Below, in pieces: positions 1-34,678 of a stretch of 64,000 bases of DNA (the stretch's first letter is position 1; the number at the start of each line of letters is the position of its first letter). The notes under the pieces are model-generated. The model was not told where the DNA came from. It searched no databases and saw nothing but the letters and a program-made list of their open reading frames with translations. The position numbers were made by a program, and so were the translations under genes. Source of the DNA: Candidatus Kapaibacterium sp. (GTDB lineage Bacteria; Bacteroidota; Ignavibacteria; Kapaibacteriales; NICIL-2); the NCBI GenBank assembly GCA_026003475.1, contig BPHJ01000001.1, positions 2,070,501 to 2,134,500 of the forward strand. Reading direction: 5' to 3'.

Positions 1-2263
<2,263 letters not shown>

Positions 2264-2345
2264 ATCCGCACATTATTCCACTACCGCGCGCGGATGCTCC
2301 AGTAGGAGCGTTGGGTAGGCTGGCACTCTTTGCGTCGTCACCGAG

Positions 2346-3380
2346 CTATCGCCCGATCGCAACGGTTACGTGCAGCAAGCGCACCATTGCCACGAGCAGT
2401 CCAATGGCGATGGCCTGATGCATCAATGCCAATGGCAGTGCAACATGGAAAGTCACCACAGCAATTCCCAGCAGGATTTGGAGCAGCAGCAGTCCCGTCA
2501 AGGTCCACAGCCAGCGCGTCACCACGGGCACATACCCACATGCACGCCGGACGGCTCGCCAGAGCAACGGCAACAGCGCAAGCCCCAGAAATGGTAACCA
2601 GCGATGCACAAAGAGCACGGTCACGGGCGCCTCGACCACATTGAGCCATGCTGGCTGCACGAAGGAAAAAAGCCCGCTCGGGAGAAGGGCTCCGAACATG
2701 AGCGGCCACGTGTCCGATAGGTGTCCGGCTTTCAATCCAGCGGTCATGCCACCGTAGCTGATCTGAATCACCAACAGAGCAAGCGCAACCGCCACGCCCA
2801 CCGTCGCACGATTGCGTTGCCTTGGTCGTGGTCGGGAAAGCGCCATCTCTGCCAGTGTCCACACAGCAAGTGCGATCATGGCGAGCGCTAACAACAAATG
2901 CGCCGTTAGCCGCAGGTGACTTACCACAGGTTGATCAATTAGCCCACTGGCAACCATCAGCCAGCCCATCACTGCTTGCCCAATGAACAACAAACCCATA
3001 CCAACCAGCTTCCCGCGGTGCTCCCGTGGCAACCGACCCTTGACCCAAAACCACAAGAACGGCACGGCAAAGTACAATCCCACTGCTCGCGCTAACTGAC
3101 GGTGAATCCACTCGATCCAGAAAATGTACCGATACTCTTCGAGTGTCATGCCGCGATTGACTTTCTGGTACTCGGGCGTCTGTTGGTATTTGGCGAACTC
3201 CTCCTGCCAAGCGCGCTCCGACAGGGGCGGAATGGCACCGCTAACAGGATTCCACTCAACGATCGAAAGCCCCGACCGCGTCAACCGCACAAAGCCACCA
3301 ACCAATACCATCACCGCAACCAGCACAGCAAATCCTGCCAGCCAGCGGCGAACCGACCGATCCACAACGGTGAATTCCAT
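2346..3380 (-). CDS. ctaA: Heme A synthase (COX15/CtaA family)
   Basis: 344-aa polytopic protein with GGFVRLTRSGLSIVEWNPVSGAIPPL, EEYRYIFWIEWIHRQLAR and FHVALPLALMHQ motifs. Confidence 0.93.
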   Translation of the reverse strand: MEFTVVDRSVRRWLAGFAVLVAVMVLVGGFVRLTRSGLSIVEWNPVSGAIPPLSERAWQEEFAKYQQTPEYQKVNRGMTLEEYRYIFWIEWIHRQLARAVGLYFAVPFLWFWVKGRLPREHRGKLVGMGLLFIGQAVMGWLMVASGLIDQPVVSHLRLTAHLLLALAMIALAVWTLAEMALSRPRPRQRNRATVGVAVALALLVIQISYGGMTAGLKAGHLSDTWPLMFGALLPSGLFSFVQPAWLNVVEAPVTVLFVHRWLPFLGLALLPLLWRAVRRACGYVPVVTRWLWTLTGLLLLQILLGIAVVTFHVALPLALMHQAIAIGLLVAMVRLLHVTVAIGR

Positions 3381-3567
3381 TCTGGAAGGAGATCATTCAA
3401 ATGGTGAGACCATGCAAAACTACCTCGCACCTTCTGCAATGTCATGCACGGGCGCGCGGTAGATGCACAACAGCGCGTGTCCCGACCACGTTCCCCGGAA
3501 TCGTCGGCGCTGGTCATGCCGAGCGCCTACTGGCAATTGCTGGCATCGAGCATGCGGCATGCCAGCG

Positions 3568-8975: not shown

Positions 8976-11900
8976 TTATCGCACCACAGTTACACGCTGC
9001 ACGGCGGTATAGGTGCCGCTGCTAACCTTGACAAGGTACGTTCCGGCTGGCAGCGCTTCGACGTTGAACTCCACGCTCGTCTGACCAGGCGTGAGCACTC
9101 CATCGAAGATGCGGACGACTTCCTGACCCAAAGCGTTGTAGAGCGCAACCGTTGCATGCTGTGTTTCCGGCACCGAGACGCGAACTTGGGCTGCGCGCTC
9201 GACTGGATTTGGCGTGACTGTCACGTCGTAACCGATCTCTTGTGGTGTCTGACGGAGCAGGCGAATAGCCGTCACATTCGGGTCACTCACGGTCAGGCTT
9301 CCGCCTGGCAGAAGGTGTCCAAGCACAGCACCCGTTGTTGCATCGAGCGCAGTGTAGGCGCCCGTGCTCTTTGCTACTCGGAGTGTGAGCGGGTAGTGTG
9401 CACCCTGTACGCGAACGATCGGGTTTGCATCCGATGCGACAAGCGTATTGCTGCCGAAGCGAACGTCGAACATACCGTGCGGTGGGAGAGGCGGAAGTTC
9501 GTACTGACCAGCCTCGGCCGCGATCCGCCCTTCACCGAGATAGAGCAGACCTTCGCGCTGGGCAGCATCACGAATCGTGAGCTGAGCGGCTGCAGCCAGG
9601 ACAGCACCGGGATCGTCCACACTGCTTGATCCTCGCGTCGTTGGAGCAGAGACATTATAGAAGCCCTGACCACGAACCTTGATCCAGTAACCTTTCCCAG
9701 GTGTCAACTCGGAGACAGCACGGTAACCACGGTTGGTTTGGTATTCATAGACGAACGTCAACGGAACGCGAATTGGTGGAGTGCCACCTTGGGTCGCTGG
9801 TTCGAAGGTGATGCGATCGATGCTAACAGGCACCGACAACGCACCAACAGTATTCCACCCATCATAGACACGCACAGGGAAGAGTCGGCTGTTGATTTGC
9901 TTGACGAGCACACCCGAAATCACCGTTGTATCGGGGTTGGGGAATCGTACAAAGTACCCAACACCAACTTTGAGCCGCTCATCTTGCTGGTAGATGTCCT
10001 GCGAGAACTTGATTGGCGTTACACCTTGCAAGTTCGGAAAGACTACCGAGTACAAATCATCCGATGGACGAACAGGCAACGAAACCAAGTTCCAGCCTTT
10101 GTCGCTGGTCATTTGGCGTACGGCGCGCGCTGGAGTGTACTCGATGTCGAACGCGGTAATGCTCGCATCGCGGATGGTGTAGGAGCGTGTTCCATCTTGG
10201 TTCAGCGTAGCTTCCCGCATATTGACGGCAAAGGTTTGCCCACCTTCAATATCGCGCAAGAACAACTGTGCACCGTCGGGGAAAGAACGCGGATCCCAGG
10301 TTATCACGATTGGATAATTGAGCGCACCGCCAGCAGAGAACCGAACACGATAGACGATCGTGGTATCATCGAAGACGTTCCGAATATCCCGCGAGGCAAA
10401 AATGCCAGTGTAATCGCCGAGCCCATTATCTTGCGAGCCATCGGTTGCGTTGATGGGGAAGAAGCGAGCAAAGAATTGTGCATCGTTTGGCGGTGTATCA
10501 TAGGGGAATTCACCAAAGAGCGAATCTGCGTTGATCGTCGCTCGCAATCCCGTCCCGAAAAGCAGTCGTGCTTGTTGCGGTACTGGCGCAGAGTTGCGAA
10601 TCTTGATTTCGATACCACGCGGCGCCCAGACTGTCGAAACGCCGTTGTAGGTTTCGTCTGGAACGCGGATATACAAGAACTTAACTTTCAACCGGACCGG
10701 CGAAATCTCGACATCTTGGGAACGGAAGGTGATATATCCCTCGTACTTGCCAGCAAATTCATTGGGGTTCTGAATGTTGGGATCATCAAAACCAACGGCA
10801 TTCGGGTCGCAAATGATATCGAGATTGAGCAACGGGTCGGCATTTTGCGGAATGTTATTGTTCACCGCATCCGGGAAACCAATCCCTTGTGGCCCAAGGA
10901 TACTGCGATCAATGTACCCAATCGTTGCCCGGCGCACAACACCGGTGGGATTGAGTTGTTTGAATGTTCCTCCTCCCGCTGCAACACCCTGGAACAGAAG
11001 CCATGGTTGATCTGATTCAACAATCACATTCTTTGCGCGCACGCCATCGGGCTTGAGGCGCACGTTGATGCGAACACGTGCTTGTGCTTGCCCCTGGAGA
11101 ACAGGATCAAGGTAAACAATCCGCGTAATCGCAAACAGAGAGTCTCCATTGTTGACATTCTCGACAGCAATTTCGTTCGGATCCAGACCCGTTGGCTGTG
11201 GCAGGAATTCGAAGCGTCCAGGTGTGTAGATGTGCGCATAAATCATGCCCAAATCAATATCGTTGACAACGGCTGGTTCGAATCCTGTCCGCTGATAGCG
11301 AATCCCCGCGAGGTAGCGATCCATATTTGCCAATCCTGGGACAGGATAGTTCACATCGCCAGGGAAGGGAGACTCATGGACAACGTCCAGCGTGTTGTAG
11401 TAAATCGAGTCCGGCGGAATTGCCAGAGGCGAAACGTCGCTTTCCAAATACCCCGGACGCCCCTTGACTTCGAGTTTGATGTAGCATAAGGGACGGAAGT
11501 CGAACGCATTGCAATCTTGGATCGAGGGATCACCGGTCAACGGCAACGGGGTACTCGATTGCATGACAACATTGACGCGGCGACCACGAAGCCGGTTATT
11601 GGTGACCGGAATGAAATTGTAGTACGTTTGGTAGAGTGTATCCCGTGCATCGTCCCAGCTGATTTGCCATCCATCGGCAATCGTTGGCTCGTCGAAGCCG
11701 TCAACGCGCACATTCGGGTGAGTACCGCTATAGACCGGGCCACGTGTTTGCACCCCGACAGCGCGGAATGCCGAGCTATCGTACTGGAACTTGAAGCGAA
11801 TGCTGTAGATGGGCTGTGCTTGGTACCCACCAGCGGTTACCCAGCAGTTCTTGATGAAGACCGGCACCAGGATGTAGCGTGGTTGATTGCCCACTGCTGC

Positions 11901-12086
11901 CGGGACCCACAAGCGCCCATCTGGATAGTAGGAGGTATTGTATCCACCTTCGCGTCCCGTCAGGCTCAACTTGGGAACCTCCGGACGAATCGGTTGTGCT
12001 TGCATCGCAATTGCAAACACCAACGCAACAACGACGGTTACCAGACTGGGCAACACACGGCGCCCAACGCCATAACCACGATCCAT
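8976..12086 (-). CDS. Large T9SS-exported surface protein with N-terminal cohesin-like beta region (left copy)
   Basis: Starts MDRGYGVGRRVLPSLVTVVVALVFAIAMQAQPIRPEVPKLSLTGREGGYNTSYYPDG. C-terminus DVTVTPNPVERAAQVRVSVPETQHATVALYNALGQEVVRIFDGVLTPGQTSVEFNVEALPAGTYLVKVSSGTYTAVQRVTVVR is a T9SS type A sorting domain. Close paralogue at 61702-64000. Confidence 0.85.
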   Translation of the reverse strand: MDRGYGVGRRVLPSLVTVVVALVFAIAMQAQPIRPEVPKLSLTGREGGYNTSYYPDGRLWVPAAVGNQPRYILVPVFIKNCWVTAGGYQAQPIYSIRFKFQYDSSAFRAVGVQTRGPVYSGTHPNVRVDGFDEPTIADGWQISWDDARDTLYQTYYNFIPVTNNRLRGRRVNVVMQSSTPLPLTGDPSIQDCNAFDFRPLCYIKLEVKGRPGYLESDVSPLAIPPDSIYYNTLDVVHESPFPGDVNYPVPGLANMDRYLAGIRYQRTGFEPAVVNDIDLGMIYAHIYTPGRFEFLPQPTGLDPNEIAVENVNNGDSLFAITRIVYLDPVLQGQAQARVRINVRLKPDGVRAKNVIVESDQPWLLFQGVAAGGGTFKQLNPTGVVRRATIGYIDRSILGPQGIGFPDAVNNNIPQNADPLLNLDIICDPNAVGFDDPNIQNPNEFAGKYEGYITFRSQDVEISPVRLKVKFLYIRVPDETYNGVSTVWAPRGIEIKIRNSAPVPQQARLLFGTGLRATINADSLFGEFPYDTPPNDAQFFARFFPINATDGSQDNGLGDYTGIFASRDIRNVFDDTTIVYRVRFSAGGALNYPIVITWDPRSFPDGAQLFLRDIEGGQTFAVNMREATLNQDGTRSYTIRDASITAFDIEYTPARAVRQMTSDKGWNLVSLPVRPSDDLYSVVFPNLQGVTPIKFSQDIYQQDERLKVGVGYFVRFPNPDTTVISGVLVKQINSRLFPVRVYDGWNTVGALSVPVSIDRITFEPATQGGTPPIRVPLTFVYEYQTNRGYRAVSELTPGKGYWIKVRGQGFYNVSAPTTRGSSSVDDPGAVLAAAAQLTIRDAAQREGLLYLGEGRIAAEAGQYELPPLPPHGMFDVRFGSNTLVASDANPIVRVQGAHYPLTLRVAKSTGAYTALDATTGAVLGHLLPGGSLTVSDPNVTAIRLLRQTPQEIGYDVTVTPNPVERAAQVRVSVPETQHATVALYNALGQEVVRIFDGVLTPGQTSVEFNVEALPAGTYLVKVSSGTYTAVQRVTVVR

Positions 12087-12127
12087 GACCACTCCTGTTG
12101 ATTGTTGAAGAAATACCATTGCCGTTT

Positions 12128-13315
12128 CTATCGGACAAGTATGGTTCGCACTACGTTGCCATTTCGTAAGTAGAGTGCAACAGCACTCCAGCGGCTACTT
12201 GCACTTGCCACGATCGGATCGGTGGGTGCGACAATGCGTTCAATCTGTCGTCCCATCAGATCCCACTGAACAAGTGCAACAACCTGTTCTGTCGGACCAC
12301 ACAGTTTCCACACCTGCGACGCTGCATCATAGTGCCAGGTAAAGACCGGGGCACCGCTCTCGGCGATCGTCGAAAGCGACTCGTATCGAACAAGGAGACT
12401 ATCGCCTTCCACCACTGCTATACACGTACACGATGCTGGCTCAATCCGGACGATAGCACGCGACATTCCCGAATCGCTGCCTACCCAACGAACAGTGGCT
12501 TCCAGGGAAACCGTTCGGGGAGCAACCGGTGATGGGCTTTCGATCTGTACGGTTATGGTCCTCGGTGATTGCTCAATCACCACTGATTGCAACGAATCAA
12601 CTTCGGCCAACCGTACTTGGCGAACTTCCATCAGACTATCGGTTGCCACCGTTACTCGCCATTGCCGAAAGCTGGCGCCCTCGGGGATGCGAATGTGCAC
12701 CGGAAGGATTGCATCCCTATCCTGCTGCAGTCGGATGCTATCGAATGGAAACTGTGCTGTCAAAGAGCGATTCGCTGGTGGCTGCTCGACCGCGGTCACA
12801 ATTGCGGATCGAAGCGCGCCGTAGAGAATTTTTGCTTCTTGGTTTTTTTCCGGTTCGTATGCGAAACGCACGCTGCTTGTGTCGGGGCATTCGCTGCGGT
12901 AGCGGAACAGCAAGCCGCAGAGCGGACCCTGGCCACGGAATGGTCGCGTAACGTTGAACGCATAGACCCGGAGTGTTATGGAGTCAATCCTGCCGCTGCC
13001 GCTGTAATCGGCATCTTCTGCAAGCGTGCCAATAAAGAGCGGAGAAACAAACTCCAGCACGCTGGGATTGTACTCAATTGCGAACTCAAAGAGCAAGAGA
13101 CTGTCGCTTGTGTAGAGCGGCGAATCAAGCGATACCGTTACAACGACCTCTCGATCACCGCAAATATTTGGGTTTCCGAGTGCAGTCAGTTGAACATCAA
13201 CCACTCGCTGTGCGTGCAACTGCACTGTCACCGCGGCAACGAACGTAACGGCGAGCCATGCAGTCGCCCAGCAACGTCGCTGCCTACCGCTCCACGACCA
13301 CTTTTGCAACCACAT
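12128..13315 (-). CDS. Exported cohesin-like domain protein (left copy)
   Basis: Signal peptide MWLQKWSWSGRQRRCWATAWLAVTFVAAVTVQLHAQ, then RVVDVQLTALGNPNICGDREVVVTVSLDSPLYTSDSLLLFEFAIEYNPSVLEFVSPLFIGTL...GPLCGLLFRYRSEC, which resembles a cohesin jelly-roll. Start chosen by comparison with the right copy. Confidence 0.7.
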   Translation of the reverse strand: MWLQKWSWSGRQRRCWATAWLAVTFVAAVTVQLHAQRVVDVQLTALGNPNICGDREVVVTVSLDSPLYTSDSLLLFEFAIEYNPSVLEFVSPLFIGTLAEDADYSGSGRIDSITLRVYAFNVTRPFRGQGPLCGLLFRYRSECPDTSSVRFAYEPEKNQEAKILYGALRSAIVTAVEQPPANRSLTAQFPFDSIRLQQDRDAILPVHIRIPEGASFRQWRVTVATDSLMEVRQVRLAEVDSLQSVVIEQSPRTITVQIESPSPVAPRTVSLEATVRWVGSDSGMSRAIVRIEPASCTCIAVVEGDSLLVRYESLSTIAESGAPVFTWHYDAASQVWKLCGPTEQVVALVQWDLMGRQIERIVAPTDPIVASASSRWSAVALYLRNGNVVRTILVR

Positions 13316-15182
13316 ATCCGATGCCGCTACCTTCAAGGCGGCAGAAGTACGTGCCCGATGGCAAGGACACACCCCGCTCATCGGTGCCATTCCAACTAAG
13401 CGGCAGCGTTCCTTTCTCCATCATGCCCTGTGCAAGCGTCGCAACACGCATTCCTTGTGCGTTGTAGATGCTGACGCTATACACGCCACGCTCGGGAACT
13501 GTCACAGCGATCACTGTGCTCGCACTGAAGGGGTTCGGCGTTGCGGTGATGAGTACGTCCTTTGGCTCATACGTTGCGATGTGAACAAGTTTATCGCCCT
13601 GACGCTCTCCATTGAACTCGATGTCGTGCAGGCGGAGCGATTCAACGGTGTTGGGAATTGTGATCCACGCTACTGGTTCATTGGCACTGGCATTGACCGA
13701 TCCTGCAATCGCAACCCGGCTGCCATGCGCAAGTGCGAGCGTATTCTCCTGAACCGCAAGTTCAACGCGTTCGATCGGTACGCCGGCATCGAAGGCGATG
13801 CTGAGCGGACCAGGGTTGTCGCCATCAAGGTAGATTGGCACCCGCAGTGCGTTACCAATCGCTACTGCCTCGCTGGTCCGCAGATCGAAGGTGCGCGCAC
13901 GTTCATAGGCGAGCTTTCCTGCCGGCACCACCGAATCAATCAACCACGGTAGCTCCGGCACACGCCCACCGAGATAGTGCATAATCAGCGCTGCATCGTA
14001 GGCATTGACATAGAAGTAGAGCGACCGAATATCGAGGGAGTTGTCATTGGGAAGATCGTCGGTGTAAACCAACGAGCGCGTCCGAATTTCACGGCGATAG
14101 CGCGGGGTATCTGCGGTGTTGTTGTAGTTGCGGGTGGAGTAGTAGTACCGACCGTTGTGGTCAACATCCCCTTTGAATGCGGGACGACGGTAGAGACTAT
14201 CGAGCGGAATTCCCGTTGCCACTGCACGCAAGATCGTCAGCGCATCGTTTGCGGTCACAAAGATATTCTGCGGACGTCCTGCATGGCGTGCACCCGGCGC
14301 TTGTGAGAAATCAGCATCGCCATCACCCCAGACATCAAGCCGGATACGGGGAATCGCTTCGAACACGATTGTTGTGTCGGTTGCTCCAGAGGGCGGCCAG
14401 AGATTGGTCAACCGTGTCGAGGTACGCGCAATATCAACATTGCCACCAAACTCCAACCCATTGATCCAGTCGCCTTGGGGTGAACTACCTTTCAACCCAA
14501 CCGAGGCATTCCGCGTCACAACCGTTTGCTGAGTAGTATTGGGGTTGCCACCAATCGCCCCATACGCAAATTCGATGTCACCTTGGAAGTTTCCAACGAT
14601 TTGTGTCTGCCGGTAGAGGAACACCTGGAAGTTCCCCACCGATGATGGAACTGTTTCGTCGTTGATATTCAGATTCCGCCACTCAATACAGAATGCATCA
14701 CGCCCACCAACACTCACCTGCCGGGTCAGGACCTGCGACGTCATATACTGTGGTTGCGATGGCGGACCGACACGCATGTAGTGATCTCCCCAGAACGGAG
14801 CAACGACGTTGCGTGGGAACTGTTGTCCATCGAACAAGCGCGTTGCGATATGCATCCCCACCAATCCAAGCGGTACGCTCGGGTTGTCAATGAACATGAT
14901 AAAGCCATTGACATTGATCGCAATGTAGTTGTACAGCGTACCGTTGAACTCAAACGGGAAGGGAAGTTGGGCGACAACGAATCCATCGTCTGGATCAGGG
15001 TTAGGCGTCGTCACAAAGTCATTTGCTGTGTAAACAGTCGTCCCCGCACCTGTCGGAAGCATCGTATAGGGACGATTTCCTCGCTTCATCGGCGGCATGA
15101 ACTCGACGTAGACTTGCGCCACCAATGAGCCAGCAGACAGCGCTGCCATCACCAATCCAGCAAGAAGCATTTTTCCTTTCAT
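13284..15182 (-). CDS. T9SS-exported protein with dockerin-like repeats (left copy, intact)
   Basis: MKGKMLLAGLVMAALSAGSLVAQVYVEFMPPMKRGNRPY...; dockerin-like DVWGDGDAD...VTANDALTILRAVATG and GDVDHNG...VNAYDAALIMHYLGG; T9SS C-terminus TATPNPFSASTVIAV...LPSGTYFCRLEGSG. Confidence 0.85.
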   Translation of the reverse strand: MKGKMLLAGLVMAALSAGSLVAQVYVEFMPPMKRGNRPYTMLPTGAGTTVYTANDFVTTPNPDPDDGFVVAQLPFPFEFNGTLYNYIAINVNGFIMFIDNPSVPLGLVGMHIATRLFDGQQFPRNVVAPFWGDHYMRVGPPSQPQYMTSQVLTRQVSVGGRDAFCIEWRNLNINDETVPSSVGNFQVFLYRQTQIVGNFQGDIEFAYGAIGGNPNTTQQTVVTRNASVGLKGSSPQGDWINGLEFGGNVDIARTSTRLTNLWPPSGATDTTIVFEAIPRIRLDVWGDGDADFSQAPGARHAGRPQNIFVTANDALTILRAVATGIPLDSLYRRPAFKGDVDHNGRYYYSTRNYNNTADTPRYRREIRTRSLVYTDDLPNDNSLDIRSLYFYVNAYDAALIMHYLGGRVPELPWLIDSVVPAGKLAYERARTFDLRTSEAVAIGNALRVPIYLDGDNPGPLSIAFDAGVPIERVELAVQENTLALAHGSRVAIAGSVNASANEPVAWITIPNTVESLRLHDIEFNGERQGDKLVHIATYEPKDVLITATPNPFSASTVIAVTVPERGVYSVSIYNAQGMRVATLAQGMMEKGTLPLSWNGTDERGVSLPSGTYFCRLEGSGIGYVVAKVVVER

Positions 15183-15302: not shown

Positions 15303-18300
15303 TTATCGTACGACTGTGACGCGTTGGACACTCGTCGTTCCTGCCGCCGAGAGCTTGAGGACATAGCTGCCCGAGCTCAGCGTGCTGCTGTCCCACGTCA
15401 GTGAGTGCATACCTGGGCTGACTACACCATCGGCAAGAACAGCCACGACATGCCCAAGATTATCCACCACTTCGAGTCGAGCCACGGTTGCATGCGGTAC
15501 CGCGAAGCGGACTGTTGCAACACTGCCATCCACCGGGTTCGGCGAAACGGGATAGAGTGCAACCTGATCACCAGCAACGGGCTCTTCCTCAACCGGCGAA
15601 GCTTGATCCCAAAGAATCACGAACGTCTGATCAGCATCGCTCTTGATCGTGAGGGTGACCTCATCGCCATTGACGGTAACATCGTAGTTACCCGGCGACT
15701 CTGTGGTGAATACACCTGTTGCCATGTTGACACGGTAGAGGTTTCCACCGGTCCCATTCTGCAGGTAGTACGTGCCGCCGCATGGATTCTTCTGCGCATC
15801 GGTCCGTGAAGGAACTTGGGACTTATTCCACTTGATCTGGACCGGGAGGTAATTGGCCGTGTTATTGTTGACACCACCCGACTGGAATCGTCCTTTGTAG
15901 GCTTCGATTGCAGCACTACCCTGTGCACAGGTCGGGAAGATGTTCACCAATGTTCCATAGCGGTTCGGGATTGTCCAACGGGCGTCGAAGACGTCCACTG
16001 GTGGAATCGGCGCCAGTTCATACTCGCAGTAGTTCGAGTCGAGCTTACCGATACCTCCACGGGTTGCATTATCGCCGGTGGTTGCATTCGGCGCCGCACC
16101 CCAGGTGAGGGTCTCGAATGCACCTTGGGCATTGCTGATGGTCATATCCACTGTGAAGGTAGTCGGCTCAGAGACCGCGATCCGGTACCGCAGGGTATCC
16201 GGACGACCATTGTGCTTGTCGGTCACAACGAGAACGACTTCGATACTGGTCTGATACGGATTGACCACCAACGGGTTGGCGATAACTCGAACCGGAATTG
16301 GCTGATTATTGGCGCGGTAACCCGGAACTTGGCTCGGTTGCACGGTCACACCCGAGGGTTGGATCACACGGATCGTGAGCAATTCATCGCGGACGATGTC
16401 AATATCGCTGACGTACACCGTATCCTCGAACGACTTCCCACTCTCGACGCACCGAATGCGCGGTGCTCCCGTGATGTTCGGATCATGGTTACGAGCGATA
16501 ATCCGCAATGGCAATGTTTTCACGTGTGTGAGTCCACCTTCGTCGGTAACAAGCACTGTCACTTGCACCGTTGTATCGTCGAAGTTCGTATCCTTGACGC
16601 GCGGTGTGCCGTAGAGCAAGCCGCTGGCTTCGTTGATCTTGAGCCAATCTGGTGTGCTTGCGTTGGCAATATCCCAGACGCCCGCTTCGGGGAAGCAATT
16701 GTCCTTTGCGATTCCGCTCGACTTCCGCGGATCGTTCGCGTAGATCAGTTCGAAGCGGTGTGTTTGGCCAAAGTTCGGATCGTAGACCACGATGCGCTTA
16801 TTCAAATCGAGCAGTGCAACGTTATAGTCTTCGTCCTCGATTGCATCGGGCAGGGAGTTCGTCTTGATTGTCGGTGCAATGTTGACGATAATCCGCCGCG
16901 TCAGGTAGGACACTCCGCCGTGCCCGTCGTTGGCAGCGATCGTCAGAACGGTATCGGTGTTGTAGGCACTGTTGTACTGGGGATCCGGCTTGAGCAGGTT
17001 GAATGCGGTGGCCGCATCAATCCGCACATTGAGCTGCCCCTTCGTGGTAAAGTCCACTGCGAGCGGATCCGCTTGTGCATCATTATCGTACTTGCGGAAG
17101 TACTGGTTGCTCATCCAGACTGGACGAGTCTGGCTTAGCCAATCAAATGCCGTATCGCTTCCGCCTTGGTTCCGTGACCGGAAGGCATACGATGTCCGCC
17201 CATAGGGGAACGTCCATCCCAATGCTTCCGCCGCTGCATCTTCTTGCTCATCATCGGTTGTAAAGTCCACCTTGAAGCGCAAGGAATCCGTCAGGTTCGC
17301 ATAGAGCGTGTTCGGATCCGGGCCGGGGCACGCCGCTGCGATGTCGGTGAAGTTTGGCAGACTATCGGTCACGAAGATGCGGAATTGATAGACCGTGTCG
17401 GCATTCCAACCGTAGTTAACCGTGTCCTGCTGCAAGTACCGTGCATTGGTTACATCGTAGGCTTGATTAGCAAAGTAAGGCGGATAGAGGTAGATGTATC
17501 GCGCGATGATGCTATCTGGGTAACCAACCGCTTTGAGCGAATCAATTGTGCGGTAGTTCGGCGGATAATTCCATGCACGGACAGTCACGACCTCACCACC
17601 CGGTACGATGTAGGGGTTGCTTGGCCGACCTTTGAGGACAACATGGCCGTAGGCTTGCCAGTATCCATTGGGCTCATCTTGGCTGGCTGGAATCGTATCC
17701 GCTTGGAGCCAACGCGCAAGCCCGCTATTGGGATCAACCTGCCATTGATAGGTCAACTGGGTGAACTTATCCGGCTCAATGATGGAGCGCGGATCGAAGA
17801 ATTTATTCGTATCCTTTGCCGTAATCGCAAAGATGGTGTCACGGCAGGGAATCGTAAATGCTTGGTCACGCGAATAATCAACGTCTTCCGACACCCAAAT
17901 CCGATCCCAGAATTGCGGTGGCGTCAAGATCGGATTGCCCAGGTTATCGGTCACGATTTGGCAGTTGTTATCACGCAGTGGTGGACGATGGGTAAGCACT
18001 TTATGCCCGGTCCAAACCGGCGGTGGGGTGGACGTACCAACCCGGAAGATGAGCGCGCCATTGAAGGCGTCATTGTTTGAGCCAACTTCACGCCACAGCG
18101 CTGAGCGCGAGACAATCGCAATCTCGTCACCTGCTTTTGCTGGAATTGCCAGATAGCGCTCACCAGCAAAGTACGTTTCCAATCCCTGGTTCGAGGCGGG
18201 CAACGATGGACGGTTCGACAGACGGAAGCCGGCCCCACCAAGCTGATTGCCCTGTGCCGATGCCATGTACTTACGCCCTTGTAGCGCACCAGCATCTTCG

Positions 18301-21300
18301 TTGAATGCATTCCGCTTGATTGCAGCCAGAATCGAAGTTAAGTCACCACCAAAGTTTGCCAACCCTTCGGCATTACGCCGCGCGGCATAACCACCGAGCA
18401 CTTGTCCGCCGAAGCTTGAGTCTGGTACAATCTCTACCCGTGCACGGAAGACTTCGCTGCTGGCATCGACTTGCTTGAGATTGACGCGAATGTAGTCACC
18501 CGTGGTGGTGTTGATGACAAAGAACACCGTTTCGTTAATCGAGCGACTATCGAGGTTGCTAAATACCGGATCAGACGAGGAGTAATCCGCACGTGCTTCG
18601 AGGAAGAGCGGGTATCCAATTGGATGATCGCCCACGAATTCGGTTTGCAGCGCGGCAATGTTCGGATCGGCTTCAGCAACAAACGGATCACGCGTATAGC
18701 GCTTGACGAACTTGTTGTACGACGGACGAACTGGGTCATTGAACCGTTGGAGTCGGGTCGGAATACCAACCGCGAAATCTTCGATCGGCGCCATCCGACG
18801 TTTGGCATAATCTGCCGTCTTGATATCGACACCTTTATCGAAGATGTCATAGATCCGCCCCTGTTGGAGCAGCTTTTCCGGAATCGAGTTCGCTGCCGGT
18901 GTTGTGTAGTCAGCACCGTTGAGTGCTGGGATCGAAACGTAGGTATAGCGTCCGATGCTTTCGAACGGACCTTGGTCTTTCCCCGTCCCGTTCCGGATGT
19001 AGCGCAACTGCTGCGTGCCATCGCCGGCAACAAAGAACGTCTCCTGATTGACCGAATCAATCGGATCACCATTGACGTCGTACTTGTACACTCTCGTCGT
19101 CACATTTGCTTCAGTATGACCCCAGTAGTTCCCACGAAGGGTATCAACTCCGCCATAGCCAATACCGGTGATTCCAGCCAGCACTCCTTTGGTGTTCGGT
19201 GCATCCGGCAAGCGGATCAAAAAGCGAGCGGTATTGTCGTAGATCGAGTTTGCTGCAACGCTATAGGTGGTCGAAGGCACTGGACCGATCACTTCGCCAT
19301 AGATAATCGCACCAGCAAGATCACTCGATGCGGGGTTATACGTTTGGTTAGCAAGCACAACGTACGGACCGGTGATGACATTCTGTTCTTGACCAACCTG
19401 CGAGGTTGCAGTATTATTGGCAACAAAGCACCGAGCCATCACCAGCTTGAGGTCGTAGTTGTCCGAGTAGATGACCGCACCGCTATAAGCTTGCTGATTC
19501 TGGAAACGTACGCGGTTGAAGAAGACCGAGTCCACTCGTCCGGCGCGCGCAGGAACGATTTGATCGAGGATGTAGATAGCGCCACCGAGTCCAGTACCAT
19601 TTTCTTGCAGGACCGGACCACCAATTGCAGCATCGGGACCGCTGGTTGCGCCAGTACCTGGGTGAGTGATGGTGATATTGCCTTGTTGCGTCCAGCCGCT
19701 TCCCATACGATTGGGATTCGGGTTGGCGCGGTTATCCAAAAAGCGAGTCAACATCCGGACATGGGGCGGAATGGTCTCGTTTGGATCGAACGTAAACGGA
19801 GGATCGTAGGAGCTGAATCCTGTAATGAATGCAGGATTGGAACCATAGCTCACTTGATCGAGATCGGTCACAAACACACGCTGGAAGATACCGCCAACAG
19901 GGGTGCCGGCAGCCGATGGCTTGGGATTGACCAATGCGATCGCACCTCCGTTACCCCACTGCGCGATATTTCCGCGGAACTCACAGGCTTTTGTCGTTTG
20001 CAACTCACCGTTGAGAACGTAGATCGCGCCACCGCCACGGACATTAGCGCGGTTAGCACTATCAACACTTTCCCCGACGCGGTTGTTGTCGAAAATGCAG
20101 CGCACGTGACGAATGTAGTTATACTCCGGCTGCACCATCGTGCTGCGGAAGTGTGCCGCAACAGCGCCGCCGGAATAGCCGGCAGTATTGCCAGAGAACT
20201 CAATCATATGAGCGCTGGTATAGCCAATCAGCGTGCCACTGATGACGCCACCGGCTCCATAGACCAAGTAGTTGCGCCGAGTAAAGATTGCTCCGCCATC
20301 ATAGGTGGCAGTGTTATTCTGGAATTTGATGTTGTAGCCCAGGTTCCGCACTTGAATATTCTGTGCATCCGAACCGCCGATATGGGGCGAGGGCTGCGCA
20401 TCGTAGCTCACGTTTTCTGCAACGTAGATCGCACCACCCCGTGCCGACTGGTTGCTGGTCATGTACATCGGAACAGGGACTTGCGTACCACCACGCAACA
20501 CCAGCCGACCTGCGGTCGAAGACATGTAGACGGCACCACCCTGATTCACCGCAGCTGCGTTGTAGTCCGTAACAAACGGTGTCTCGGTCATATTCGAGCG
20601 ATAGCGACCCGTTGTCACCAGGCTGGTGTATCCGGTCACATACACCGCACCACCCCGTGCACCATTGGTGCCAGTGACTTGCTGATAGTTGGTTACCTTG
20701 TTACCGTCAAAAATCACGTAGTCGTAGCCTTGGAAATCATTGACGCCAAGCCCAACATGAATGCCCCAACGACCGGCCATATACACCGCCCCACCGAAGG
20801 CATCGTTTTTGTACGCCTTGTTGGGATTGGTTTCAATTGGTGCTGGCGCTTGCTCATCATCACGAACGATGATGAACGTACCATTTTGGGTCACCACTGT
20901 ATCAACCCGAACGCGCGCATTGATCACGCGGTTTTGTGCAAACGTCAACTGACGGATACGGCCAAGGTAAATAGCCAGACGTCCATCATCGAGCGACTGC
21001 CGGTAGGTGTCCTCCAGCTCATTGATCGTGCCATCGTAGAGGTTATCATGAGCACGTACATAGTTGGTGCTACTTGGCTGGTTATCCCGCCGCGGCGGAG
21101 GAAGCAGTGTCGAGGTATTGGCTGCATTTTGCTCGAAGAGGTACTGGTTGACGATATGGCTCGGGCGCGGCGGACTCATCGCAGCACCCACATCGGCAGG
21201 CAGGTACGACGCTGGCAACGCATTATACTGGGTTGCACCTGTTCCTGTCGAGATTGACGGATAGAACACGTTGTTCACATCAAACGGCGCTTGGAGGAAC

Positions 21301-22388
21301 TGCACCGCACCACCATGGTAGCGCGCAGTATTACGGGTAAAGTTGCAATTGACCAGCCACGTCCGCGAGGACAGAATCGACAGCGCACCACCAGACCCTT
21401 GCGTCATCGCAACCAATTGTCCATTAACCGAGGCGGGGTTGCTGACATCACCCGCAGCTGTCTGTTGGTAAATGTTCACACGATCAACCGTGGTGTCCTT
21501 GCGGAAGTTATCGAAGTCGCAGTCACGGAAGAAAGCAGTCCGTGCACCAGGCAGGATGATGATATGCCCCCATTCGCGAGCAAGGTTTGTTCCAACGCCA
21601 ACGAAACGGATGCGATCACGCCCCGGACCACCGATGCTGGGGTCTTGGTTGTTGAAGCGGCGCCATGGCTGGGTCCGAATCAGTGGATCCAGCGACGGAT
21701 TTTCCAGCCGTGCAGTAATCCACATGAGCGCATACTCGTAGGGGACAACGAACTTGGTGTTGTAGTAGGTGTTGGCACCAACCACCGTTGGGGTATTGTA
21801 CAGGTACAGTTGCCCACTTGGCGGCGGCGGAGTACCGGATGGATTGACCGCCGTTGGCCACTGCACATACACTGCGCCTTGAGCATTGTACGGCAGCGGC
21901 GGCAGGTTCTCGATCCGTCGCGTGAGTGTATCGAGAATCACGTTGTAGGTGATGTCGTACTTCTGCGAATGGATCGTCGGCTCGATTTGCGTGGTCTTAG
22001 CAATCACCGACACATTGAGGAAGTACGCCGGGTCGGAATAGTCGTAGCACGTTCCACCGCCCGGACGGGGGATGGTCTGGTAGTTCGGCGGATTAGTGAA
22101 GTTATAGGCCGCACGGGCGCGTCCGTCGGCGATAATGCGACCGCCGGTGGAATCAATGATGCGCCCATTGGGCAAGAACTCCACGCGCGTGCCCGGCTCG
22201 ATAATGAGTGTGCCGGCAATCACGTAGTTCCCGCTGACGCGGTAGAGCGTGTCGCGGACGAAAATGCGGACGTCATTGACACCGACGCGTCCGGAAACGT
22301 CCCGTATCGGCAATTGGGCGAGTGCAGTGCTCGCCGCCATCGTCGCAAAGAGCGCAACCAGTGCACTCAATCGAAACCAACGAAGCAT
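15303..22388 (-). CDS. Giant (~2361 aa) T9SS-exported beta-helix protein with GGAI/FxxN (Pmp-like) repeats (left copy)
   Basis: Start MLRWFRLSALVALFATMAASTALAQLPIRDVSG (conserved in right copy). Repeats include YHGGAVQF, ARGGAIYVAEN, IKFQNNTATYDGGAIFTRRN, IEFSGNTAGYSGGAVAA, CEFRGNIAQWGNGGAIAL. T9SS type A C-terminus LYPVSPNPVDGSVATVRF...LSSGSYVLKLSAAGTTSVQRVTVVR. The longer ORF start at 23108 overlaps the TPR gene. Confidence 0.88.
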   Translation of the reverse strand: MLRWFRLSALVALFATMAASTALAQLPIRDVSGRVGVNDVRIFVRDTLYRVSGNYVIAGTLIIEPGTRVEFLPNGRIIDSTGGRIIADGRARAAYNFTNPPNYQTIPRPGGGTCYDYSDPAYFLNVSVIAKTTQIEPTIHSQKYDITYNVILDTLTRRIENLPPLPYNAQGAVYVQWPTAVNPSGTPPPPSGQLYLYNTPTVVGANTYYNTKFVVPYEYALMWITARLENPSLDPLIRTQPWRRFNNQDPSIGGPGRDRIRFVGVGTNLAREWGHIIILPGARTAFFRDCDFDNFRKDTTVDRVNIYQQTAAGDVSNPASVNGQLVAMTQGSGGALSILSSRTWLVNCNFTRNTARYHGGAVQFLQAPFDVNNVFYPSISTGTGATQYNALPASYLPADVGAAMSPPRPSHIVNQYLFEQNAANTSTLLPPPRRDNQPSSTNYVRAHDNLYDGTINELEDTYRQSLDDGRLAIYLGRIRQLTFAQNRVINARVRVDTVVTQNGTFIIVRDDEQAPAPIETNPNKAYKNDAFGGAVYMAGRWGIHVGLGVNDFQGYDYVIFDGNKVTNYQQVTGTNGARGGAVYVTGYTSLVTTGRYRSNMTETPFVTDYNAAAVNQGGAVYMSSTAGRLVLRGGTQVPVPMYMTSNQSARGGAIYVAENVSYDAQPSPHIGGSDAQNIQVRNLGYNIKFQNNTATYDGGAIFTRRNYLVYGAGGVISGTLIGYTSAHMIEFSGNTAGYSGGAVAAHFRSTMVQPEYNYIRHVRCIFDNNRVGESVDSANRANVRGGGAIYVLNGELQTTKACEFRGNIAQWGNGGAIALVNPKPSAAGTPVGGIFQRVFVTDLDQVSYGSNPAFITGFSSYDPPFTFDPNETIPPHVRMLTRFLDNRANPNPNRMGSGWTQQGNITITHPGTGATSGPDAAIGGPVLQENGTGLGGAIYILDQIVPARAGRVDSVFFNRVRFQNQQAYSGAVIYSDNYDLKLVMARCFVANNTATSQVGQEQNVITGPYVVLANQTYNPASSDLAGAIIYGEVIGPVPSTTYSVAANSIYDNTARFLIRLPDAPNTKGVLAGITGIGYGGVDTLRGNYWGHTEANVTTRVYKYDVNGDPIDSVNQETFFVAGDGTQQLRYIRNGTGKDQGPFESIGRYTYVSIPALNGADYTTPAANSIPEKLLQQGRIYDIFDKGVDIKTADYAKRRMAPIEDFAVGIPTRLQRFNDPVRPSYNKFVKRYTRDPFVAEADPNIAALQTEFVGDHPIGYPLFLEARADYSSSDPVFSNLDSRSINETVFFVINTTTGDYIRVNLKQVDASSEVFRARVEIVPDSSFGGQVLGGYAARRNAEGLANFGGDLTSILAAIKRNAFNEDAGALQGRKYMASAQGNQLGGAGFRLSNRPSLPASNQGLETYFAGERYLAIPAKAGDEIAIVSRSALWREVGSNNDAFNGALIFRVGTSTPPPVWTGHKVLTHRPPLRDNNCQIVTDNLGNPILTPPQFWDRIWVSEDVDYSRDQAFTIPCRDTIFAITAKDTNKFFDPRSIIEPDKFTQLTYQWQVDPNSGLARWLQADTIPASQDEPNGYWQAYGHVVLKGRPSNPYIVPGGEVVTVRAWNYPPNYRTIDSLKAVGYPDSIIARYIYLYPPYFANQAYDVTNARYLQQDTVNYGWNADTVYQFRIFVTDSLPNFTDIAAACPGPDPNTLYANLTDSLRFKVDFTTDDEQEDAAAEALGWTFPYGRTSYAFRSRNQGGSDTAFDWLSQTRPVWMSNQYFRKYDNDAQADPLAVDFTTKGQLNVRIDAATAFNLLKPDPQYNSAYNTDTVLTIAANDGHGGVSYLTRRIIVNIAPTIKTNSLPDAIEDEDYNVALLDLNKRIVVYDPNFGQTHRFELIYANDPRKSSGIAKDNCFPEAGVWDIANASTPDWLKINEASGLLYGTPRVKDTNFDDTTVQVTVLVTDEGGLTHVKTLPLRIIARNHDPNITGAPRIRCVESGKSFEDTVYVSDIDIVRDELLTIRVIQPSGVTVQPSQVPGYRANNQPIPVRVIANPLVVNPYQTSIEVVLVVTDKHNGRPDTLRYRIAVSEPTTFTVDMTISNAQGAFETLTWGAAPNATTGDNATRGGIGKLDSNYCEYELAPIPPVDVFDARWTIPNRYGTLVNIFPTCAQGSAAIEAYKGRFQSGGVNNNTANYLPVQIKWNKSQVPSRTDAQKNPCGGTYYLQNGTGGNLYRVNMATGVFTTESPGNYDVTVNGDEVTLTIKSDADQTFVILWDQASPVEEEPVAGDQVALYPVSPNPVDGSVATVRFAVPHATVARLEVVDNLGHVVAVLADGVVSPGMHSLTWDSSTLSSGSYVLKLSAAGTTSVQRVTVVR

Positions 22389-22515
22389 ACGACCTCCGAA
22401 AGTGTAAAACGTTGCTGTCACATTCATTGCAGTTTGCGTTCGGTTTATTGAACTATTTTGTGCGTTCGTCCTGCAGATTCTTCTACTACTGCGCACCACC
22501 GCAAAATGGGCGCGC

Positions 22516-23247
22516 TCAATATTCAACAACCGTGCCAAGTCTGGCAAGCCCAGCTTTGGCATCGGCAGCATATTCGGAAAACTCAAATTCCGCAAGCAAT
22601 GCCTTGTAGAGGCCGATTGCTTGGTCTTTGTTGCCGGCTTTTTCGTAGCACTGTGCAGCAAAGAGGGTGTATTTGTCTTTTGCACCAATCTGTTCGGCAT
22701 CGGGCAGGATTGATTCGTAGAGTGCAGCGGCCTCTGCCAACTGGTTCTGCTGCTCTTTGCAGGCAGCACGTCCGGCAATTGCGCCGATCCGCACCAGGGG
22801 AGCATCCGAACCTTCCGCTTGCTCGAAGTAGCGCTCGGCTTCCTGGTAGCGCTTGCGGTCGAAGTAAATATGCCCAGCGTAGAGCGCTGCGGTCTTCCCA
22901 GCCGCGGTGCCGCTGTAGGTATCGGCGATTGCCAACAAGCCTTGAACAGGCTCGCCCCGGACAGTCTTTTTGGGATCACCGTTGAGTGCTTCGTCGTACT
23001 GCTGAGCTTCAAGGTACGGCAGGACGCGACTGAGCGCCAAACTTGCTTCCGCCTCACGCTCCTGCGCCCAGGAGTGCCAGAGCGCATAGGCTGCGACCGC
23101 AAGCCCAACTACAACGAGCGCCAGCACGCCATACCGCACGCGGCGATCATTCCACGCACGCTCCAACCACGGCGGCAACGCAACGGCTGCCACCGGTTGC
23201 TCAACAGCGCTGGTCGGTTCTTGAACTGGTGTGGTAGCTTCTGCCAT
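22516..23247 (-). CDS. TPR-containing, TM-anchored protein (left copy)
   Basis: MAEATTPVQEPTSAVEQ...RVRYGVLALVVVGLAVAAYALWHSW then TPR-like RYQEAERYFEQAEGS, KDQAIGLYKALLAEFEFSEYA. Start trimmed because the ORF extends into the tRNA. Confidence 0.85.
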   Translation of the reverse strand: MAEATTPVQEPTSAVEQPVAAVALPPWLERAWNDRRVRYGVLALVVVGLAVAAYALWHSWAQEREAEASLALSRVLPYLEAQQYDEALNGDPKKTVRGEPVQGLLAIADTYSGTAAGKTAALYAGHIYFDRKRYQEAERYFEQAEGSDAPLVRIGAIAGRAACKEQQNQLAEAAALYESILPDAEQIGAKDKYTLFAAQCYEKAGNKDQAIGLYKALLAEFEFSEYAADAKAGLARLGTVVEY

Positions 23248-31416: not shown

Positions 31417-34400
31417 TTACTTGACCAACTGCATCTGCTTGGTTGCAACCACGCGACCATCGAAGAGCAAGCGGTACTCATACGTGCCCGAACTGAGCAA
31501 GCCCATCTCGAGCGTCACGCTGGCCCACTGCTCCCGAGCCGGCAGCTCAATGGTGCGAACGGTCCGTCCCATTGCATCGCTGACTTCGAGCTGAGCACGC
31601 CCAACGCCACTGGGTACGTAGTACGGGATGGTCGTCGTGCCGTCGTGAGGATTGGGGATGTTCTGCCCTAACCACTGGCCATCGAGGCGGACGGTGGTGG
31701 TAGCCGCGCCTGCGGTGATGGGCTGTCCAGCGGCGAGCTGCTCGATCATCGTGCGTAGCTGCGCCAGTTCGGCGCGCAGCTCTTCGTTGCGGCGGTTCTG
31801 CTCTTCGACGCGAGCGCGCAGCTCCTCATTGCGGCGGTGCTCTTCCTTGAGCGCTTCGACCAGCAGTGCCGTCAAGCGGCTATAGTCCATGCCTAAGTAC
31901 TCGCCCGTCTTTGGGTCGCGGTCCACAACTTCCGGTACTATCGGCGCAACGTCCTCCATCACAAACCCAATATCCCGCGTGCCACCGTACTGCGGCTTCC
32001 ACCGAAACCGCACCCCCTGCAAACGCAACACCTTCCCCAAAGCATCTGCCAGCGGCTCGATGTCGTCTTTCCACGCACGCGAGGAGTAGTTTGCGTACCC
32101 TTGCGCACGAATCCGCCCAACGTTGGTTGCTGAATTGTTTGGCAAGTCTATGCGGTAGGATGGCGCGCCGGTGAAAAACGCCAACTTCCCATCGGGCAGA
32201 AGTCGCATCTTGACCGTGTCGGTGCCGCTCGAAGCATTGGTGCGGAACTGGATTTCGGCATTCTCATTCTGCCGCAGTTGGATGTTGGTGCCGCTCAGCT
32301 CGATGAGGAACCCATCGCTTGCCGTGTTGCCCGTGGATGAATTGACAAACTGCAGACTACCAGCAGCAGTGACGCGCATGCGTTCGGTGTTGCCCGTGCG
32401 AATAACCAGCGGCTGGCTGTCGGTTGTGCCCAGGAAGTTTGTGGAGGGGTCGGTGCTACTATTGCCGGTGAGAGACCAACCACTACCTCCAGCAGGAGAC
32501 TGCCACTGTGCGGATGTACCATTCCATGTGAGCACCTGACCAGTGCTTGGGATGTTGGTGTAGAGCGTCACTGTTCCGCTCAAATCTGGCAGCGTCCATA
32601 CGCGATCAGCCGTAAGCGTCGGTGAAGCAAGGGTGAGGGCATAGGGTCCACTTGTTCCGGCGAAGCTGATGAGCCCACCGCTGCCGCTATTGGCTACGAC
32701 CAGTGCGGCTGCTGTGTTGTCATTGGTCACAATAGCTGTGGTGGTTGCAGCAGAAAGGCTTCCCAAGATCGTCGTGCCGCCGACCACCAAATCGGTGCCA
32801 ACCGTCAGCGACTGACCAACAGCAAGACTTCCATCAGTGCTGAGGGTATTGGTGACCCCGGGGTTGATTGCGATGCTGCCGCTCCGGCTAAGCGTGCCGG
32901 CGCCGTCATCGCTGAGCGAACCATCTACCAGCGCCGAACCGCTCCATCGTGGGATCGCACCAGTGGTCGTGACAGAAACCTCTGGGTCTGTTTCACCCAC
33001 CGAGATGCTTGCCCACTGCGGCACACCACCTTGCGTGACGAGCACTTGCCCTTCCGAACCTGCCGCAAGCTTACTCACTGCGATGGCTGCTGTGCTGCTG
33101 ATGTCGGTGTTGGTGATTGTCCCGTCGGCGATCTTCGCACTTGTCACCGCACCACCAGCAAGCTCGGTCGTGCCGACTACCCCGCTGCCAAGTTGCAGGT
33201 TGTTGTACGGGCCGCTGACGTCGCCGCTGAACGTTGTGCTTGTCGTCAGGTCGTCGCTGGGGTCATCATCTACAAGTTGCCAGCTAAGCAGGCCGCCTGC
33301 ATCGGTGCGTAGCACGCCACCGGCAGTGATGGATGCAGGCAGGGTGTAGGTGATGTTTGCTGATTGCGCTTGGGCACGGAAGGCGGTGTATTCAGACCCC
33401 GACCCCGATGGCTCTTGGAAGCGGAGTTCGCGTGCGGTGTTGTCGGTGTTACCGAGTGCCACATAGCCACTGGTGATGCTCACATTGCCGGATGCATCAA
33501 TCCGGAATCGTTCGGTACCGGCAGTTGCAAGGCCCAACTGATTTGCGCCTGGACTAAACATGCCGGTCGAAGCACTGTTTGTGAAGCGGTATGCTGGCGT
33601 GCTTGCCGAACCATCGGCACTTCGGTAGCCATCGGCGCGAATGCTTCCATCCACACGGAGTTTTCCATCGGCAGTAACGTTGCCAATGACAACCGTCGTC
33701 GAAGCAGCACTGGCAAGCCGAACCGAACCGGTAACGTCGAGCGAGACACTCGGCGAAGACGTCCCCACGCCAAGCCGCGCATTGGTGTTGTCCCAGAATA
33801 GGTTACTGCTGCCGGTCAAGGCCGATCCATCCCAGAATGCCACCTGGCCGGTGCTGAGCGTGCCGACCTGTGGGTCGGTCTCAGCCGATGATACCAACGT
33901 CGAAGGATTTACCCACGACAAGTTCCCCGAACCATCGGTCTGCAACACACCACCTGCCGTAACACTGGCGGGTAACGTGTACACAATGTCACTGGTTTGA
34001 GTCTGGGCACGGAAGGCCGTGTAGTTGGCGCTGCCGTCGCTGCTTGTAGAAGGTTCGTAAAGCCGGAGCTGACTTGCCTGGTTGCGCACGTTGTAGAGCC
34101 ACAGGTCCACGTCCACAAAGGCGGTGATGTTGCTACTTGCGCTCAAGTCGGTTGGGATGTTCAGTATCTGGCCACTGAAGCCAAAGCTGCGATTGCCAAC
34201 TTTCAGGTTGTAACCGCCAGCAACCGTAGAATATGCGCCACCGGCAGTGTTGCTGCTGCCGCCACTGACAACGCTGAACAAACCACTGGCGGTGTTACCC
34301 CCACCCCCGCTGACGACGCTGCCGCCACTGCTTGCAGTGTTGCTTCCACCACCACTGACAACGCTGAAGTCTCCGCTGGCAACTTGAGCAGCATTATCGC

Positions 34401-34596
34401 GATAGCTCTGTAGGTCCACGGCATGCTGGCCGCGCTGGTTGCCGCCGTTGCGCTGGATGCTCCAAGCAGGCGCACTGGTTCCCGGCGCATTGAAGCGGAT
34501 AAGTTCATCGGAGGTGTTCATCAGCAACCCAACCTGTGCTGATGCTTCGGTAGTGGCAACCACGGCCACCACTACCACTACAAACCACGGTTTCAT
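31417..34596 (-). CDS. Fibre-like protein with S74 intramolecular chaperone domain plus T9SS sorting domain
   Basis: YadA-head-like repeats (FSVVSGGGSNTAS...); S74-type SSRAWKDDIEPLADALGKVLRLQGVRFRWKPQYGGTRDIGFVMEDVAPIVPEVV; coiled coil; C-terminal YYVPSGVGRAQLEVSDAMGRTVRTIELP...SSGTYEYRLLFDGRVVATKQMQLVK. Confidence 0.85.
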   Translation of the reverse strand: MKPWFVVVVVAVVATTEASAQVGLLMNTSDELIRFNAPGTSAPAWSIQRNGGNQRGQHAVDLQSYRDNAAQVASGDFSVVSGGGSNTASSGGSVVSGGGGNTASGLFSVVSGGSSNTAGGAYSTVAGGYNLKVGNRSFGFSGQILNIPTDLSASSNITAFVDVDLWLYNVRNQASQLRLYEPSTSSDGSANYTAFRAQTQTSDIVYTLPASVTAGGVLQTDGSGNLSWVNPSTLVSSAETDPQVGTLSTGQVAFWDGSALTGSSNLFWDNTNARLGVGTSSPSVSLDVTGSVRLASAASTTVVIGNVTADGKLRVDGSIRADGYRSADGSASTPAYRFTNSASTGMFSPGANQLGLATAGTERFRIDASGNVSITSGYVALGNTDNTARELRFQEPSGSGSEYTAFRAQAQSANITYTLPASITAGGVLRTDAGGLLSWQLVDDDPSDDLTTSTTFSGDVSGPYNNLQLGSGVVGTTELAGGAVTSAKIADGTITNTDISSTAAIAVSKLAAGSEGQVLVTQGGVPQWASISVGETDPEVSVTTTGAIPRWSGSALVDGSLSDDGAGTLSRSGSIAINPGVTNTLSTDGSLAVGQSLTVGTDLVVGGTTILGSLSAATTTAIVTNDNTAAALVVANSGSGGLISFAGTSGPYALTLASPTLTADRVWTLPDLSGTVTLYTNIPSTGQVLTWNGTSAQWQSPAGGSGWSLTGNSSTDPSTNFLGTTDSQPLVIRTGNTERMRVTAAGSLQFVNSSTGNTASDGFLIELSGTNIQLRQNENAEIQFRTNASSGTDTVKMRLLPDGKLAFFTGAPSYRIDLPNNSATNVGRIRAQGYANYSSRAWKDDIEPLADALGKVLRLQGVRFRWKPQYGGTRDIGFVMEDVAPIVPEVVDRDPKTGEYLGMDYSRLTALLVEALKEEHRRNEELRARVEEQNRRNEELRAELAQLRTMIEQLAAGQPITAGAATTTVRLDGQWLGQNIPNPHDGTTTIPYYVPSGVGRAQLEVSDAMGRTVRTIELPAREQWASVTLEMGLLSSGTYEYRLLFDGRVVATKQMQLVK
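34225..34385. repeat. In-gene tandem repeat (~48-51 nt units) encoding GG.SNTA/GGGGNTA motifs
   Basis: Repeated ctgcc(g/a)ccactgacaacgctgaa...caccggcagtgttgct; protein VVSGGGSNTASSGGSVVSGGGGNTASGLFSVVSGGSSNTAGGAYSTVAGG. Confidence 0.75.
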
Positions 34597-34678
34597 GGTA
34601 GAACAGTTAATGTGAAACATGCTATGCGGGCAAAACTAAGTCCGTGGAATGGGCACAGGTTCAAGCAAAAATTTACCG

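Follow-up and report, generated by a model that had tools for sequence, protein, structure and literature searches.

A conserved four-gene T9SS cassette of Kapabacteria encoding a cohesin dyad and a loop-expanded dockerin as a putative pair

The window analyzed here is a 64,000-nucleotide stretch of the genome of Candidatus Kapaibacterium sp. (contig BPHJ01000001.1, positions 2,070,501 to 2,134,500), and its left arm carries two overlapping reverse-strand genes for a dockerin-bearing protein and a cohesin-like protein. The dockerin-bearing T9SS protein is encoded at 13284–15182 (−), in an open reading frame that opens with an ATG at 15182 and a signal-peptide-like start. From the N- to the C-terminus it is made up of a signal peptide, a nidogen-like (NIDO-like) domain, a loop-expanded dockerin, a weakly cohesin-like beta domain, and a T9SS tail. 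The cohesin protein (12128–13315, −) contains a signal peptide, two tandem cohesin-like domains, and a degenerate T9SS tail; signal peptides were assigned by eye. Its likely ATG at 13315 lies 31 nt ahead of the last base of the upstream stop codon, giving an overlap of 32 nt between the two genes. The same offset is found in a right-arm copy of the pair (60525/60556) and in congeners G005 and G004, and it is absent in the remaining congener compared, G003. On the same strand, the pair is preceded by the gene for a giant PMP-type beta-helix protein (15303–23108, −, the longest open reading frame, with the signal-peptide start inside it and a T9SS tail at the C-terminus) and followed by a fourth gene encoding a T9SS-tailed protein of 1047 aa (8976–12119, −; TIGR04183, 6.9e-12). 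The open reading frames confirm both the placement and the motifs given for the pair in the preliminary description of this DNA. Elsewhere in the window, positions 31417–34620 encode a protein of 1067 aa that has a Peptidase_S74 (endosialidase chaperone) domain and, close to its end, a weak match to FlgD_ig.

The export route of these proteins is apparent from their C-termini. TIGR04183 tails are present on the dockerin protein (13287–13541, −; 27.3 bits against a cut-off of 23), the 1047-aa protein, and the giant protein (genome positions 2085812–2086048), while the tail of the cohesin protein is degenerate in this species; a profile match to solved T9SS tails was also obtained. The genome encodes PorU (757.7 bits), and at E ≤ 0.01 the T9SS tail model matches it 72 times, mostly over cut-off. 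A signal peptide, a C-terminal sorting domain, and a T9SS in the genome, the features that mark T9SS cargo, are all found here, in agreement with the earlier claim that the set is exported by this system.

The cohesin assignment is best seen in the structural model. The AlphaFold model of the cohesin protein (pLDDT 94.4) adopts the cohesin beta-sandwich fold. In the PDB, a type II cohesin dyad (3l8q, E = 3.6e-12) accounts, with three of its chains, for three of the model's four best matches, and the other is a cohesin-FN3 construct; the TM-score to a single cohesin (5nrm) is 0.71 by target length. When compared by hhalign with 20 Pfam-confirmed cohesins from relatives, domain 1 (12788–13210, −) gives 88.8% (E = 2.5e-6, 101 columns) and domain 2 (12425–12787, −) gives 43.9% (E = 2.4e-4), with unrelated controls at 0.3% or less and the dockerin protein's own beta domain at 16%. 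The window protein itself has no match to Pfam Cohesin (PF00963), and the family is matched by 12 of the 74 orthologues at E ≤ 1, with two over cut-off in a separate search; Por_Secre_tail is matched by 48 of the 74. The clearest case is an outgroup orthologue at the same locus position (L186:5237-6445), which matches PF00963 in two stretches (E = 2.3e-12) and carries a T9SS tail, while no Cohesin match was found in the same-place genes of two other outgroups (L185 and L187). The cohesin protein is also the fastest-evolving member of the cassette, with a median identity of 19% versus 37–47%. Fold, orthologue matches, and hhalign together uphold the cohesin-like domain originally proposed.

The dockerin module (13944–14339, −; residues 309–440 of the dockerin protein) has an unusual organization. 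Its two repeats read WGDGDADxS...VTxND and GDVNHNGR...xNEYDAALI, and across 61 homologues ligand positions 3, 5, and 12 are conserved in repeat 1, and positions 1, 3, and 12 together with Gly6 in repeat 2; position 1 of repeat 1 is variable, being non-acidic in 15 of the 61. In the homologues, both calcium loops are broken between positions 7 and 8 by inserts of 13–18 and 33–88 residues, the second of which is visibly shorter in two outgroups. The inserts in the window protein comprise residues 321–335 (15 aa) and 373–418 (46 aa). None of the unedited sequences reaches the Pfam dockerin cut-off, and only 2 of the 61 homologues are listed at all (best E = 0.094). When the inserts are cut out, all of 10 divergent homologues match Dockerin_1, 7 of them over cut-off, the window dockerin matches with E = 2.4e-8, and the hhalign value against real dockerins rises from 5.8% to 87.7%. 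The two dockerin-type repeats first noted by eye are real in kind, and the comparison with PF00404 proposed at that time succeeds for the edited sequences and fails for the native ones.

The choice of excision was controlled by scoring all 2702 same-length excision pairs against a model of the relatives' real dockerins. With 26.1 bits (median 6.4), the excision used here takes 14th place among the 2702. The better-scoring pairs hold the position of insert 2 within one residue, and the top-scoring pairs drop part of the linker instead of insert 1; from this pattern the placement of insert 2 is judged good and that of insert 1 less so. The AlphaFold model of the dockerin protein (pLDDT 88) places helices at the expected positions (289–301 and 372–382, mature numbering) and strands in insert 2. 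Two loop-helix repeats are present, their calcium ligands conserved in the alignment and their helices seen in the model. Because the loops carry inserts, and the window dockerin has neither uninterrupted 12-residue calcium loops nor a match of its native sequence to the model, it is classed as a loop-expanded dockerin variant and not as a plain member of the family.

A fold search with the full-length model of the dockerin protein listed no dockerin, its C-terminal sandwiches dominating the result, and a profile built from the whole dockerin region had no match in the PDB. Queried directly against Pfam, NCBIfam, and the PDB, the sequences of both window proteins yielded no signals other than those of T9SS tails and FlgD_ig, the dockerin protein having a FlgD_ig match; a NIDO match is found in 15 of the 61 homologues. 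Directly after the dockerin lies a domain of predicted beta strands (13557–13904, −) that aligns weakly with the relatives' cohesins (hhalign 16%, E = 1.6e-3, 104 columns, against 0.4% or less for unrelated controls). Among the relatives, dockerin proteins of family f9 (L047, L052, L057, L060-L064) are about 900–957 aa long with a repeated N-terminal region. This genome also encodes a 464-aa protein (L084:826-2220, genome ~1656.8–1658.2 kb) whose dockerin exceeds the Pfam cut-off, a 75-aa stretch matching 52 model positions; its N-terminal domain looks cohesin-like by eye, and similar frames of 450–545 aa recur in relatives.

The pair forms the middle of a four-gene cassette whose order on one strand (giant PMP beta-helix, dockerin, cohesin, ~1047-aa T9SS protein) is kept in 40 of 40 relatives' loci, where for divergent cohesin genes the open reading frame in the gap was taken and one locus (L048) stops short of the fourth gene. 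Since both genes of the pair hold their position in all 40 of these loci, and likewise in every genome-contig locus long enough to judge, their association is not due to chance. The fixed order also bears out the proposal of a modular operon that includes the giant beta-helix and the fourth protein, earlier given as ~1036 aa. Scanning 85,462 species genomes yielded 80 loci, mostly in records titled as Kapabacteria, Kapaibacterium, Ignavibacteria, or Bacteroidetes MAGs; the complete cassette, with all four full-length genes in fixed order, is present in 62 of them, and the other 18 are interrupted by contig ends or N runs. Two records that are labelled Desulfobulbaceae (L109) and Bradyrhizobiaceae (L122) carry a Kapabacteria-type cassette and are mislabelled or contaminated MAGs.

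Within the order, the cassette spans nine families as a single copy per genome, and one family lacks it. The fourth gene is found in 50 of 61 relatives and the dockerin gene in 49 of 61, some of these matches being split or fragmentary, with one copy per genome and two in the genome studied here. In all ten genomes of family f7 (G013, G021, G028, G034, G039, G044, G048, G052, G056, and G060) the dockerin and 1047-aa genes are both absent, and the cohesin protein is unmatched too. Related genomes of the order have these genes; outside f7, G053 is without both genes, and G046 is without the dockerin gene, with its fourth gene at a contig edge. Gene order is kept in three outgroup genomes of the class. 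Among the other matches listed from a draw of 247 genomes of the phylum, those outside the order cover the C-terminal part only, except for one N-terminal paralogue in an outgroup. Inherited together and present, with few exceptions, in one copy per genome, the cassette marks a core cell-surface feature of Kapabacteria, a lineage known here from metagenome assemblies only.

The second copy in this genome has a different origin. The preliminary description had noted that the pattern recurs in the right arm with the same overlap of about 32 nt, and the dockerin (58659–60556, +) and cohesin (60525–61655, +) genes there do share that offset. The recurrence is not a native duplication, however: positions 43851–66911 and 69726–78275 on the window scale (numbers above 64000 lying beyond the window) share 99.93% and 99.99% identity with the congener Ca. 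Kapabacteria bacterium KatS3mg040 (G005), whereas the left arm is about 75–78% identical to that congener over most of this stretch. An origin of the right arm by inverted duplication within this genome is rejected, the arm being 99.9% identical to another species. The near-identical segment is ~34 kb long, is inverted relative to the native copy, and extends to genome base 2,148,775 (78275 on the window scale); within it, beyond the window, lies a 2.8-kb stretch that is missing from G005. Sequence comparison suggests either a recent transfer or a chimeric assembly, and the estimated assembly contamination of 2% would be compatible with both. Because of this identity, the right-arm copy represents the orthologue of the other species and is not independent evidence from this genome. 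One G is missing from a G-run of its dockerin gene near 58983 (GGG, compared with an intact GGGG in G005), and because this one-base deletion splits the frame, the open reading frame seems to start at 58985 in place of the true start at 58659. The right-arm orthologue of the giant protein is 2393 aa long and matches Chlam_PMP (1e-6), He_PIG, and Por_Secre_tail in Pfam. One end of the segment lies at a CRISPR-like repeat in the species of G005. A CRISPR-like array with a 66-nt period and the repeat GTTGTCGGCAAAATTACTTTGTGTCCAATCCGCAAC lies at L071:15599-16753 (genome ~2066.1–2067.3 kb), and a further array-like repeat stretch is found near genome bases 1–3400.

Peer and colleagues reportedly described, in 2009, noncellulosomal cohesin and dockerin proteins, with the same module types occurring outside cellulosomes. 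Compared with the type II cohesin dyad of Acetivibrio cellulolyticus ScaA (PDB 3l8q), the cohesin protein is alike in its beta-sandwich fold, tandem pair, and export, but its sequence is very divergent (10% identity in the structural alignment) and it is carried on a T9SS protein without carbohydrate-binding modules. Similar to type I dockerins (PF00404), the dockerin module has two loop-helix repeats, calcium ligands at positions 1, 3, 5, and 12, and Gly6 in repeat 2; in contrast to them, both of its loops are interrupted between positions 7 and 8, and position 1 of repeat 1 is not consistently acidic. Dockerin variation is also known from Ruminococcus flavefaciens, in the form of 11- or 13-residue repeats and long linkers (PMC2930009), and the Kapabacteria case is set apart from it by the lack of enzymes, the large loop inserts, and the fixed cassette. 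A cohesin system borne by the T9SS, initially regarded as noteworthy, has a precedent in Cloacimonadota (Ca. Stygibacter), where a CTD-anchored cohesin scaffoldin of 3755 aa and dockerin-tagged enzymes were inferred (PMC8542988). That system is alike in T9SS-type anchoring, cohesin, and dockerin, while here there are no enzymes, the loop inserts are large, and the four-gene cassette is fixed. No description of this cassette was found in the literature covered, which left most subscription journals outside.

How the two proteins relate to each other can be read in several ways. The main rival to pairing between them is an intramolecular arrangement, given the weak cohesin resemblance of the domain that follows the dockerin and the occurrence of a cohesin and a dockerin in one chain in several of these genomes. 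In this arrangement the domains would be real without pairing across two proteins: the dockerin would pack on the cohesin-like beta domain of its own chain as a calcium-stabilized structural unit, and the cohesin protein would act on its own as a beta-sandwich adhesin or adaptor. A shared reading frame is frequent in relatives (e.g., G039:C34, G044:C83, and G056:C399), the 464-aa protein at genome ~1.657 Mb has a similar look, and the pair shows no special co-evolution, as distance matrices do not discriminate between partners (the cohesin tracks the dockerin protein, with a partial r of 0.28, no better than it tracks the fourth gene, with 0.27). However, the cohesin gene is never lost from between its neighbors, and an open reading frame is kept at that place even in outgroups, which fits the partner of a complex. 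We regard the intramolecular arrangement as a real but rather unlikely possibility.

The failure of the unedited sequence to reach a dockerin match over cut-off, and the many integrin and Ig-like chains that also match the cohesin-protein model, would be expected if the resemblance were only general, with an EF-hand-like calcium module unrelated to dockerin next to generic Ig-like sandwiches of T9SS proteins. This is improbable in light of the top rank of cohesins among the fold matches and in HMM searches of relatives, the match of the excised dockerins to Dockerin_1, and hhalign controls near zero. A cellulosome-like surface enzyme complex, for which the same domain types are in use and for which the enzyme-bearing, T9SS-tailed version in Cloacimonadota offers a model, is very improbable. 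Pfam reveals no convincing enzyme domain in any of the four cassette proteins, in keeping with the original remark that the operon holds no carbohydrate-active enzyme, and no enzyme or carbohydrate-binding family is over cut-off in the cassette, in contrast to the dockerin-tagged enzymes and the scaffoldin with a carbohydrate-binding module that mark a cellulosome.

The reading we favor, to which we give about even chances, is an enzyme-free, T9SS-exported surface assembly in which the cohesin dyad and the loop-expanded dockerin, encoded at the center of the four-gene core cassette of Kapabacteria, form a putative pair. All four products would leave the cell through the T9SS, after which a cohesin domain would grip the dockerin module at the cell surface, probably with calcium. 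The nidogen-like protein would in this way become linked to its cassette partners, among them the giant PMP beta-helix and the 1047-aa protein, and the resulting surface assembly, devoid of enzymes, may be structural or adhesive. In its fullest form the proposal is more tentative: a core surface complex of Kapabacteria, built by the T9SS and free of enzymes, in which the cohesin dyad is predicted to grip an insert-opened dockerin and which carries a giant PMP-like beta-helix. The presence of the cassette in nearly all related genomes examined points to a shared surface structure without cellulose-degrading enzymes. If this proposal is true, the calcium loops of dockerins would be able to host long inserts, and cohesin–dockerin pairing would in this lineage serve the architecture of the envelope and not the digestion of plant polymers.
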